Source of the DNA: Candidatus Bipolaricaulota bacterium
GTDB lineage: Bacteria; Bipolaricaulota; Bipolaricaulia; RBG-16-55-9; DRXL01
DNA length: 64,000 nucleotides
Assembly: GCA_938091745.1 (NCBI GenBank)
Contig: CALLJK010000016.1
Coordinates: forward strand, 16,910 to 80,909
Direction of reading: 5' to 3'
Positions 14,122-18,825 of the stretch are shown here, one piece after another (the first letter of the stretch is position 1; each line of letters begins with the position of its first letter). Under the pieces are notes generated by a model. That model searched no databases, had not been told where the DNA came from, and worked only from the letters and a program-made list of their open reading frames with translations. A program made the translations under genes and the position numbers.

Positions 14122-15624
14122 ATGGAGCGCTTGCTTGGCATCGAGACCGAATACGGCATTCTCATAGAGGGCGTGGATGTTACAGATTTAGTCGATGAAG
14201 CTCGCGTCCTGGTGCAGAGCTACTCTGAACTCTCGGCCCAGCCTTGGGATTATCGCGACGAAGACCCTCTGCGCGACGCCCGCGGCTGGCGCGCTCCGAC
14301 TTTAAATGTTAATCCCAAAGACGAAGTCTACGAAAAACCCTCGCGCAAGCAATTAAGTGCTTCCGAGGATCACGTTGACAAGGTCTTACCCAACGGAGCT
14401 CGCTTCTATCACGATCATGGGCACCCCGAATACAGCACCCCTGAATGCCGGTCACTTCGAGAACTTATCGCTCACGATAAAGCCGGCGAGCGCATCGTCT
14501 GGGACACAGCGCAAGCTTATACTCAGAAGACGAGCCGTGCTGTGTCGATTTTTAAGAATAACATAGATTATCACGGCATGAGCTTCGGCTGCCATGAGAA
14601 TTATCTCGTCTCGCGCTCGCTCCCGTTTGAGAAGCTGATCGCCGGGTTGATCCCGTTTTTGGTGACGCGTATTCTCTTTACGGGGGCCGGTCGCGTCGGG
14701 GGCGAGGAGAGCTGGGTCGACTTCCAGCTCTCGCAGCGTGCTGACTTTTTCACAGAGCTGTGCAGCGTGGACACGCTCGACCGGCGTCCACTCATCAATA
14801 GCCGTGACGAACCCCACGCTGATGAAAGACTCTACAGAAGACTGCACGTGATCTGCGGCGACGCAAATCTCAGCGAGTACGCAACGGCGCTGAAGGTCGG
14901 CACGACAGCGCTGGTTCTCGCTACGCTGGAAGCGGGCTACGGTCCGCCAGGAACGCTGAAAGACCCTGTCAGAACCCTTAAAGAGCTCTCGCGCGATCAG
15001 ACTTATAAATGGCTTGTCGAGCTCGAAGAAGCAGGGACTATTTCAGCCCTTGACGTCCAGCGGGCGTATCTCAAAGCTGCTCAAGAAGTCTTTCGCCATC
15101 GCGACGCTGAGACCAATTGGCTACTGCAAGAGTGGGAGTCGGTGCTCGATGATCTCGAAGCTGATCCCATGCGTTGCGCCGACCGGCTTGATTGGGTCGC
15201 CAAGCACCGACTGCTCCAGACTTTTATCGAATCTGAGAAGCTGAGCTGGCGCGACGAGATTGTGCGCAGCTTAGACTTAGAGTATCACGCTCTTGACCTC
15301 AATCGCAGTCTCTTTTATGAGTTACAGAATCAGGGAGCAGTGCGCCGCATTGTCACAGAAGACGAGATCGCGCGCGCGATGCGCCAGCCCCCCACTGATA
15401 CCCGCGCCTACATCCGCGGGCTGTGTGTCCGAAAGTTCCCGTCGATGATACGCGCGCTCAATTGGGGGCGGATCACGCTTTGTCAGAACGGCCAAGAGTT
15501 TGCGCTCGATCTGCGATCACTCGTAGACAGTCGAGTTGGGGCGTTCAGGCGCTCTATAGAGGGGGCCTCGACGCCACGTGAGCTTTTGGGTATCATACAG
15601 CAGACTCTTCAAACGAAGGAGTGA
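14122..15624 (+). CDS. dop: Dop-like depupylase/deamidase homolog (PafA/Dop superfamily)
   Basis: LLGIETEYGI, WDYRDEDPLRDARGW, NGARFYHDHGHPEYSTPECRS, DEPHADERLYRRLHVICGDANLSEYATALKVGTTALVL; the WDY..PLRDARG segment is Dop-type. Confidence 0.92.
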   Translation: MERLLGIETEYGILIEGVDVTDLVDEARVLVQSYSELSAQPWDYRDEDPLRDARGWRAPTLNVNPKDEVYEKPSRKQLSASEDHVDKVLPNGARFYHDHGHPEYSTPECRSLRELIAHDKAGERIVWDTAQAYTQKTSRAVSIFKNNIDYHGMSFGCHENYLVSRSLPFEKLIAGLIPFLVTRILFTGAGRVGGEESWVDFQLSQRADFFTELCSVDTLDRRPLINSRDEPHADERLYRRLHVICGDANLSEYATALKVGTTALVLATLEAGYGPPGTLKDPVRTLKELSRDQTYKWLVELEEAGTISALDVQRAYLKAAQEVFRHRDAETNWLLQEWESVLDDLEADPMRCADRLDWVAKHRLLQTFIESEKLSWRDEIVRSLDLEYHALDLNRSLFYELQNQGAVRRIVTEDEIARAMRQPPTDTRAYIRGLCVRKFPSMIRALNWGRITLCQNGQEFALDLRSLVDSRVGAFRRSIEGASTPRELLGIIQQTLQTKE

Positions 15625-15630
15625 TAGCCA

Positions 15631-15801
15631 ATGCCAGAGCGCATTACAAGACCTATGCCGCAAGACCCACTGACTAGGCCCGAAGACGAGGGGCCGCGCA
15701 CGCCCCGCGTGCCCAAGCCGGACACCGAGAGACTTCTCGAGCGGATGCGCCGCGTTGACCCACGCCAAGCCCAACGCTACCGTCAGCGCAGCGGGGAGTA
15801 G
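15631..15801 (+). CDS. ubact: UBact-like ubiquitin-like modifier (Pup analog), 56 aa, C-terminal Gly-Glu; absent from the ORF track
   Basis: ATG at 15631, TAG at 15799-15801: MPERITRPMPQDPLTRPEDEGPRTPRVPKPDTERLLERMRRVDPRQAQRYRQRSGE; proline/arginine/acid-rich N-half, short helix, RYRQRSGE tail; sits between dop and prcB. Confidence 0.9.
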   Translation: MPERITRPMPQDPLTRPEDEGPRTPRVPKPDTERLLERMRRVDPRQAQRYRQRSGE

Positions 15802-15807
15802 TTCTCA

Positions 15808-16602: not shown

Positions 16603-16604
16603 GT

Positions 16605-17339
16605 ATGGCGTTTACTCCCTATGACTGGCAACAGACCCTCAGACAGAAAGCTGACTACGTCGAAGACCGGCTGCGTGAGGGCAGCCCCGTTGTGGGGCTC
16701 TCGTGTCACGAAGGCGTTCTGTTAGTGACGGTGCGCCTCGCCCAGCAGCAGAAGATCTTTGAAATCTATGACAGATTGGCGTTTGCGGGTCTGGGCAATC
16801 AGTCTGATCTAGAGACGATCCGTCAGATCGCTGTAGACTTTGCGCATGCTGAAGGGTTTGCGCGTAGCCCACAAGACGTCTCGATTCAGCGGGTCGTAGG
16901 CGTGGCGCTCAGCCCAGCCATGAAGCGCAGCTTCAGCGATCCGTTGCGATTGCCCTTGGTCGTGCGCGGGCTCTTTGCCCAGCTGGGCGATACCCCTGAG
17001 GGCGATCTCTTCTATATGCTCAACTATGACGGAGAGTTCTCGCTTGGGCATCGTTTTGGGGTCGCCGCGGGGACGGAGAGCGCTCGTGAGGCGATGGAGC
17101 GCGTGCTCTCACAGTTCAAGATATCCAAGCGCGATGCAGCTTTGGAGAAGGCTCTGGAAGCCTGGGCTGTGGGACGTCGGGAAGCTTCAGGGACAAGCGA
17201 ATCCGACTGGCGCGCGGTCTTAGCAGCAGCGCTCAAGATGGGCACAGTAGAAGCAGCGTTGCTCGAGCGCGTCTCGCAGCGCGAGCGGCGCTTTCGGTTT
17301 TTGCGCGAAGACGAACTGAGGCCGCTCTTGCCAAGATAG
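16605..17339 (+). CDS. prcA: 20S proteasome alpha subunit
   Basis: Follows prcB; MAFTPYDWQQTLRQKADYVEDRLREGSPVVGLSCHEGVLLV...KIFEIYDRLAFAGLGNQSDLETIRQIAVDFA matches PrcA layout. Confidence 0.92.
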   Translation: MAFTPYDWQQTLRQKADYVEDRLREGSPVVGLSCHEGVLLVTVRLAQQQKIFEIYDRLAFAGLGNQSDLETIRQIAVDFAHAEGFARSPQDVSIQRVVGVALSPAMKRSFSDPLRLPLVVRGLFAQLGDTPEGDLFYMLNYDGEFSLGHRFGVAAGTESAREAMERVLSQFKISKRDAALEKALEAWAVGRREASGTSESDWRAVLAAALKMGTVEAALLERVSQRERRFRFLREDELRPLLPR

Positions 17340-17376
17340 TTCTAATCAGCTAATGTAGGAATGAGGAGCGTGAACG

Positions 17377-18825
17377 ATGCAGCATCGGGTTGTCGGACTA
17401 GAGACAGAGTTTGGGTGTCTCGTGCGCGACCCTGGCCTTGGGCCCTATGAGGAAGTCGTCGAGCGAATCAAAGACGCGGTTTTTCGCAACAAGCGCTGGG
17501 GCTTGCTCGATCTGCACACCCGTGATATGTACTTTGAGCCCGCTGAAGCCGGCGGGTTCTTAATTAACGGCGGCCGACTCTATATCGATGCTGTGGGCTC
17601 GCACTTGGAGTACGCCACCCCGGAGTGCCGGTCGCTGCGCGACCTGATCGCTTATGAACGTGCCGGGCAACGGCTTATTCTGAAGATATTGCGCGAGCTC
17701 CGCCTCCAGGACAGAGTCAGTTTTTATAATAATAGCGTCGATCACTTCGCGGGGCACACCTTTGGGTGCCATGAGAATTATTCTGTTGACCCGGAGTCGC
17801 TCTCCTGGCGCCATGCCCTCGAGAAATTAGTTCCGTTCTTGGTCACACGCCAGATCTTCGCGGGAGCCGGACGAGTCGGCGGCCACCGCCTTACTACAAT
17901 GTGGCAGACCAAATCCCGCCACACTGCTGATACGGTCTTTGTGGACTCAGCCTATGGGGTCGAACCTGATCCAACTGTAGACTTTCAGCTCTCCCAACGC
18001 GCTGATCATATCTTGCACACGGTCTCTGGGCGGGTCCGCTTCAGCCGCGCGCTCATTAATCCCAAGTGGGACCAGATGTACGAACTCTCTCGGAGCCCTC
18101 GGTTGCACCTGCTCTTTGGCGAAGCTAACCCATCTGAATACGCGACGTTCTTGAAACTGGGCACGACGATCTTGGTCTTAGATCTCTTAGAGGAGCAAGC
18201 AGTTCCCTCGGGAGTGGAGTTGGCCGCGCCGCTGCGCGCCCTCAAAGAGATCTCTCGCGATCCCACTCATCAATGGCTCGTCAGACGCGACAATGGCTCA
18301 ACGATCTCTGCGATTGATCTCCAGCGTCTCTATCTGCAAGCGGCACAACGACACTTTGCTGGCCGCGACCCTGAGACCGACGAAGTCCTCCGCGAATGGG
18401 AAGAGACTCTCGACACTTTAGAGCGTGACCCTTTGGAGCTTGCGGACCGGCTTGATTGGGTCGCAAAATTCACAATGCTCCAGCTCTTCAAAGACGCTGA
18501 AGGGCTCACCTGGCAGGATGATACCCTGCATAGCTTGGATTTGGAGTATCACAATATTGACCCGGAGCAGGGACTCTACTATGCGCTCGAATCGCGACGG
18601 CGGCTCGTAAGCGACTCCCATATTGAGCGAGCTATCGAAGAACCCCCTGCTGATACGAGAGCTTATGGGCGAGCGCTGATCGTGCGTGGCCTGCGCGGGC
18701 ACGTCGTCGGCGAATATATGATCGAATGGGATGGGGTCTTCGTTGAGCCCAAGCGCACCCTCGTACTGGCTGATCCCTTTCATTCTTATAAAGACGAAGC
18801 CGAGCAGTTCTTACGGCGTCTCTAG
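17377..18825 (+). CDS. pafA: PafA-like Pup/UBact ligase
   Basis: VVGLETEFGC, GGRLYIDAVGSHLEYATPECRSLRDLIAYERAGQRLI, FGCHENYSVD, HLLFGEANPSEYATFLKLGTT; VGSHxEYATPEC is the PafA signature. Confidence 0.93.
   Translation: MQHRVVGLETEFGCLVRDPGLGPYEEVVERIKDAVFRNKRWGLLDLHTRDMYFEPAEAGGFLINGGRLYIDAVGSHLEYATPECRSLRDLIAYERAGQRLILKILRELRLQDRVSFYNNSVDHFAGHTFGCHENYSVDPESLSWRHALEKLVPFLVTRQIFAGAGRVGGHRLTTMWQTKSRHTADTVFVDSAYGVEPDPTVDFQLSQRADHILHTVSGRVRFSRALINPKWDQMYELSRSPRLHLLFGEANPSEYATFLKLGTTILVLDLLEEQAVPSGVELAAPLRALKEISRDPTHQWLVRRDNGSTISAIDLQRLYLQAAQRHFAGRDPETDEVLREWEETLDTLERDPLELADRLDWVAKFTMLQLFKDAEGLTWQDDTLHSLDLEYHNIDPEQGLYYALESRRRLVSDSHIERAIEEPPADTRAYGRALIVRGLRGHVVGEYMIEWDGVFVEPKRTLVLADPFHSYKDEAEQFLRRL

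Follow-up and report, generated by a model that had tools for sequence, protein, structure and literature searches.

The 64,000-nucleotide stretch analyzed here (the window; positions 16,910 to 80,909 of contig CALLJK010000016.1 from a Candidatus (Ca.) Bipolaricaulota bacterium) contains five open reading frames on the same strand at 14122-18825, which encode a UBact modifier, two members of the Pup-ligase family, and two subunits of a 20S proteasome. The genes lie in the order dop (14122..15624, +), UBact (15631..15801, +), prcB (15808..16602, +), prcA (16599..17339, +), and pafA (17377..18825, +), with intergenic gaps of 6, 6, -4, and 37 nucleotides. The original prediction of five co-directional genes with tiny gaps or overlaps held to the exact coordinates, and the profile matches of the products were far from chance. 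The prcA frame opens at 16599, and the ATG at 16605 is its probable start. Good ribosome-binding sites were present upstream of UBact, prcB, and pafA. The sequence ATGACA-17-CATAAT (14087-14121) ends 6 nucleotides ahead of the ATG of dop, where no ribosome-binding site was seen; this candidate promoter is a consensus match only, and the dop mRNA may be leaderless.

The 56-residue modifier matched NF033388 (1.6e-20, 73 bits; cut-off 35) and PF20513 (2.5e-20, 72.4 bits; cut-off 27.8). In the profile searches only UBact models matched it and no Pup model did, and its identification as Pup was rejected on that ground. Judged by sequence, the modifier is UBact, a previously described class, and the module is therefore of a known non-actinobacterial kind. 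Accordingly, the pupylation-type pathway that had been predicted stood as far as the Dop, PafA, and 20S homologs are concerned, but not for the tag itself. Lehmann et al. (BBRC 483:946; cited in PMC12751074) reportedly described UBact in 2017 together with a conjugation system and a proteasome in several Gram-negative bacteria, Fraserbacteria reportedly being among the carriers. UBact was present in 15 of 60 relatives, and its terminus, RYRQRSG[EQ] or a near variant, was conserved; the window copy ends in RYRQRSGE. Glu was the last residue in 28 of 42 UBact rows and Gln in 14 (a few genomes are counted twice among these rows and among the 27 ARC rows discussed below), and at least eight switches between the two were required on a 31-row tree of Dop, PrcB, and PafA. 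One very close pair differed in this residue (Gln in L064, Glu in L090). The close relatives L022/L027 and L068/L075 were likewise split between Gln and Glu ends. Because the window UBact already ends in Glu, Dop would be unneeded for deamidation, and it should be kept for tag removal instead.

The dop product (500 amino acids), a depupylase/deamidase-type paralog that would act here on UBact, matched PF03136 at 1.4e-160 and solved Dops at 4.1e-105. Its score with TIGR03688 (459.4 bits) was below the cut-off of 492.3, and this was its best model by 100 bits (360 bits with the PafA model). It carries the canonical INSRDEPHAD motif and a long insert, the Dop-loop, between GhExE and the catalytic Asp. 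The 482-residue pafA product matched PF03136 at 3e-122. Dop and PafA were told apart by Gly66-, Ala72-, and His188-type diagnostic positions and by the number of residues from GhExE to the catalytic Asp, which is 90 in the window Dop and 62 in the window PafA, compared with 86 in Acidothermus Dop and 48 in Nonomuraea PafA. The genome contains exactly two genes of the Pup-ligase family (PF03136), these two, in the same operon as the modifier.

PrcB matched the proteasome family profile PF00227 at 4.8e-26 and the Rhodococcus beta subunit at 1.2e-26. It has a 46-residue propeptide ending HG, followed by TTV, and Thr1/Asp17/Lys33, as predicted for this subunit, were found with exact spacing in the window PrcB and in 42 of 45 rows of relatives. 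PrcA is a divergent alpha subunit, with a weak match to the same family profile (1.3e-6) and a match to TIGR03691 (1.6e-22) below the cut-off. The weak profile match is backed by a match to Mycobacterium tuberculosis (Mtb) PrcA (1.5e-13) and by a predicted structure (mean predicted local distance difference test score, pLDDT, 78) whose best PDB matches were Mtb 20S proteasome chains. The activator-pocket residue Lys52 was kept in the window PrcA (QKIFEIYDR) and was invariant in 20 aligned sequences.

The operon had been described as a complete set; the regulatory ATPase, however, was found by genome search 33 kb away on the same contig and the opposite strand. This gene, arc (51753..53468, -), encodes a 571-residue Mpa/ARC-type proteasomal AAA ATPase when read from its ATG, and a TTG at 53525 is an alternative start. 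The protein scored 443.3 bits with TIGR03689, under the cut-off of 504.75, yet this was by far its best family. Its proteasomal ATPase OB domains matched PF17758 (2.3e-15) and PF16450 (3.7e-13) above the Pfam cut-offs, and its closest solved relative was Mtb Mpa (1.3e-98).

Distribution and gene order in the phylum

PafA relatives at 61-81% identity belonged to Ca. Bipolaricaulota, Acetothermia, or Fraserbacteria. Of 100 genomes from the phylum, 16 had Pup-ligase genes, all of them in the window's order, and none was found outside it. Within the order, the genes were missing from two family f2 genomes and from a congener that is 69% complete. Both paralogs were whole in 14 of the 16 genomes with matches, and the contigs of the other two (G015 and G017) were broken or split there. 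Congeners had this operon too, flanked by the same HU and PKD genes, and the guanine-plus-cytosine (GC) content was even across the window; chimerism and an actinobacterial origin are therefore excluded. Conservation of the operon in the order and its absence from the rest of the phylum likewise exclude a chimeric assembly. An actinobacterial origin of the contig, which the original prediction had raised together with chimerism as a challenge to itself, was ruled out by the named relatives and the synteny, the host being Ca. Bipolaricaulota. The comparison with related genomes that it had proposed found the operon kept across the host's order.

As for the position of arc, other genera of the order (L022, L025, L026, L027, L028, and L036) have the gene immediately upstream of dop. 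The order arc-dop-UBact-prcB-prcA-pafA was also found in many Armatimonadota and is likely to be ancestral, judging from these loci. Ca. Fraserbacteria RBG_16_55_9 (L041) carries the same cluster in the same order. At L025 (590-7140), and also at L027 and L034, membrane-protein genes are inserted between prcB and prcA; at L025 they make up an entire RDD/SpoIIM/DUF58/MoxR-like cluster, a naming based on inspection of the sequences by eye. In Armatimonadota of the Fimbriimonadales type (L061, L087, L116, L081, and L060), pafA lies apart from dop-UBact; where the genome is complete, the distance is about 1 Mb. A PafA of this type is also encoded by L107, a contig titled Methanoregulaceae archaeon that is probably misbinned or mistitled. 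L024 (8608-8871) has a truncated second prcB start and a run of N beside a full prcB, probably an assembly gap artefact. No relatives were found in viral contigs. The 159-kb record MT835496.1 (L123), titled 'Bacteriophage sp.' and derived from human faeces, contains an actinobacterial-type ARC gene with a broken frame, dop, a pup gene ending GGQ, and pafA, and is probably bacterial DNA labelled as phage.

Proposed pathway and docking of the ATPase

All reaction steps and the coiled-coil capture proposed here are modelled on the Pup pathway. PafA would use ATP to activate the side-chain carboxylate of the UBact C-terminal Glu and link it to lysines of target proteins, and Dop would be the hydrolase that removes UBact from them. 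The N-terminal coiled coil of an ARC hexamer would capture the UBact-tagged protein, which would then be unfolded and fed into a PrcA7-PrcB7-PrcB7-PrcA7 core and cut by PrcB Thr1. The observed gene content, gene order, conservation, catalytic residues, and host phylum argue for a module that tags proteins with UBact and degrades them by the proteasome, stably kept by one order of Ca. Bipolaricaulota; we assign this reading a probability of about 90%. This supports the prediction that a lineage outside the Actinobacteria has a full module of tag, ligase, hydrolase, and 20S core, in which the Dop and PafA paralogs flank the core. Catalysis and docking probably depart in detail from the Pup pathway, because both the active site of the ligase and the docking tail of ARC differ from it throughout the lineage.

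Several points weigh against this module. The window PafA fits the PafA and Dop models equally well, far under both cut-offs, and lacks the arginine needed in M. smegmatis PafA. ARC is without the penultimate-tyrosine tail that Mpa uses to dock, so that coupling between ARC and the 20S core is proposed by analogy. Finally, the window's genus and one sister genus have arc outside the operon.

Mycobacterial Mpa docks to the alpha ring through a C-terminal GQYL motif (PMC12288473, PMC8755798), and Nonomuraea ARC also ends in GQYL. In contrast, the window ARC ends in AGEMVV, and all 27 UBact-type ARC rows end in two Val/Ile residues ([VI][VI]), none with an aromatic among its final four residues. 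An unlikely explanation is that UBact tagging and the 20S core are only loosely coupled, ARC being a Cdc48-like unfoldase and the core degrading other substrates, as suggested for corynebacteria, in which ARC has no docking tail. The absence of GQYL from every one of these ARC ends is in keeping with it, as are the loss of arc from the operon in the window's genus and the lack of a docking motif in the ATPases of actinobacteria without 20S genes (PMC3511204). However, prcA and prcB adjoin UBact and dop in nearly all loci whose contig extends far enough, and the strong conservation of the [VI][VI] end together with the retained PrcA Lys52 suggests that ARC docks to PrcA through a contact of different chemistry.

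The divergent ligase and the PafA/Dop pair

The original prediction had named the two paralogs PafA and Dop; the ligase turned out not to be a standard PafA. The window PafA scored 288.6 bits with TIGR03686 (PafA; cut-off 551.3) and 288.3 bits with TIGR03688 (Dop), whereas Nonomuraea PafA scored 760.6 bits with the former. According to PMC7947786, the R193A variant of M. smegmatis PafA had no detectable activity, T183 and T184 also contribute, and both PafA and Dop conserve these residues. We aligned 91 UBact-type PafAs and 40 partner Dops with actinobacterial references, including CgPafA and AcDop. The R193-equivalent position was Lys in 89 of the 91 PafAs and Arg in two, and the T183 and T184 equivalents were Val and Arg in every one; the window protein has Val220/Arg221 and Lys230 at these positions. 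We infer the placement of Lys230 relative to ATP from sequence. The N-T-R-D-E-P-H stretch was changed to N-P-K-W-D/E in most UBact-type PafAs (INPKWD in the window, INTRDEPH in the references). In the Hx4D motif, so named by Iyer et al. (PMC2588565), all 91 have Glu in place of Asp (Glu249 in the window). This rewritten alpha-loop/active-site motif covers residues 217-249 (SGRVRFSRALINPKWD...RLHLLFGE; 18025..18123, +). All 40 partner Dops retained R-D-E and Hx4D.

The second paralog might instead be a UBact hydrolase or an inactive regulator, as these same Val/Arg/Lys and Glu replacements could imply, but this is very unlikely. The catalytic Asp and the Arg205- and His241-type residues were invariant in all 91 proteins, and the window PafA retains GhExE and CHENY, with catalytic Asp71, a D-A-V-G-S-H loop, and no full Dop-loop. 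The PafA-type diagnostics Gly66, Ala72, and His188 (defined in PMC7947786) were also invariant, supporting the ligase call. Furthermore, Lys for Arg is a conservative change accompanied by a new Arg nine residues earlier, a tag would serve no purpose if there were no ligase, and wherever the contigs are intact the genome has exactly one Dop and PafA pair. In the interval from GhExE to the catalytic Asp, the window PafA has an extra piece, LDLHTRDMYFEPAEAGG, which may be what is left of a Dop-loop, although the evidence for this is weak. An AlphaFold2 model of PafA, built from an 11-row alignment, had a pLDDT of 47.9 and was not used. Our literature search, which did not extend to the original UBact paper, found no report of the lineage-wide ligase and ARC differences, and these are probably, although not certainly, unreported.

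To place the two paralogs, four-group unrooted trees were built with three actinobacterial pairs and without Nitrospirota and Planctomycetota sequences. The dop and pafA of the 'Bacteriophage sp.' record, which are of the actinobacterial type, served only as tree rows because the record looks like mislabelled bacterial DNA. UBact PafA and UBact Dop were paired against actinobacterial PafA and Dop with a support of 87/99, and of 85/99 in a second alignment with stricter columns; both PafA groups have long branches. Forcing the two PafA groups together cost 5.7-6.0 log-likelihood units and was not rejected by the approximately unbiased (AU) test (p = 0.337 and 0.374). PMC7947786 had found one ancient PafA/Dop duplication, in a tree that covered Actinobacteria and Nitrospirae and took its root from Planctomycetes homologs. 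Read literally, our tree would imply that the ligase (or the hydrolase) arose twice, with a single shared duplication having an AU p of 0.34-0.37. The phylogeny that the original prediction had called for thus set both paralogs apart from the actinobacterial sequences, but did not decide between one and two duplications.

Given the pairing of UBact PafA with UBact Dop (85-87/99), the short insert of PafA, and the changes fixed in all or nearly all of the 91 proteins, we tentatively put forward, at odds well short of even, the joint claim that the ligases of the UBact branch form a class of their own, derived from a Dop-like hydrolase separately from actinobacterial PafA. Their active site would have been rebuilt, with Lys in place of the essential Arg, a new Arg at Thr184, and Glu instead of Asp, and the ATPase would dock to the 20S core through an aliphatic C-terminal pair in place of the tyrosine-containing motif. 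Acquisition of a Pup-proteasome cluster by horizontal transfer from Actinobacteria, or contamination or a chimera, would fit the patchy occurrence in one order among 100 genomes, but is highly improbable given the operon and HU and PKD neighbours shared by congeners, the even GC content, the UBact modifier, and the branching of PafA and Dop with Armatimonadota/Bipolaricaulota apart from actinobacterial sequences. The operon may have been imported from another UBact lineage into the ancestor of the order.

Comparison with known systems

The module shares its modifier family, gene set, and gene order with the UBact conjugation-proteasome system, and Armatimonadota relatives carry the same cluster; the sole difference found was the unlinked arc of the window's genus. 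All UBact-type loci examined share the window's ligase motif and ARC tail. For the Pup-proteasome system, Nonomuraea (L117/L122) and structures from Mtb, C. glutamicum, and Acidothermus served as yardsticks. The two systems are alike in their Dop, PafA, PrcB, PrcA, and ARC homologs, the G-E/Q end of the modifier, PrcB Thr1/Asp17/Lys33, and PrcA Lys52, and the same reactions would be expected. In contrast, the modifier ends in QKGGE in actinobacteria and in RQRSGE in the window, the window PafA has the altered INPKWD motif and about 14 additional residues inserted ahead of the catalytic strand, ARC ends in [VI][VI] rather than GQYL, and the long C-terminal tail of Nonomuraea PrcA is missing from the window PrcA.

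The window also contains hslV (33305-33853, +) and hslU (33857-35251, +), both above the NCBIfam cut-offs, so that HslUV and 20S genes coexist in it; the genome also has ClpP and Lon. HslUV is likewise a proteasome-fold beta-type protease with an AAA partner, but it has separate genes and no modifier. Directly downstream of the operon is a Sec-type nitrous-oxide reductase gene, nosZ (20673-22670; 866 bits, cut-off 625), after which NosD-like and ABC transporter genes extend to 26252.

This type of system has been known since 2017, and the window is a further example in a non-actinobacterial phylum. A full UBact-proteasome module, ATPase included, would be a stable character of a single order within an uncultured phylum, and proteasomal tagging in bacteria would be no actinobacterial speciality. 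The lineage-wide changes bear on knowledge that comes only from mycobacteria, namely the need of the R193 arginine and the Thr pair for ligation, and the ARC tails bear on whether the ATPase needs a penultimate tyrosine to open the 20S gate. The interchange of Glu and Gln ends of UBact between near-identical systems bears on whether deamidation by Dop matters at all.

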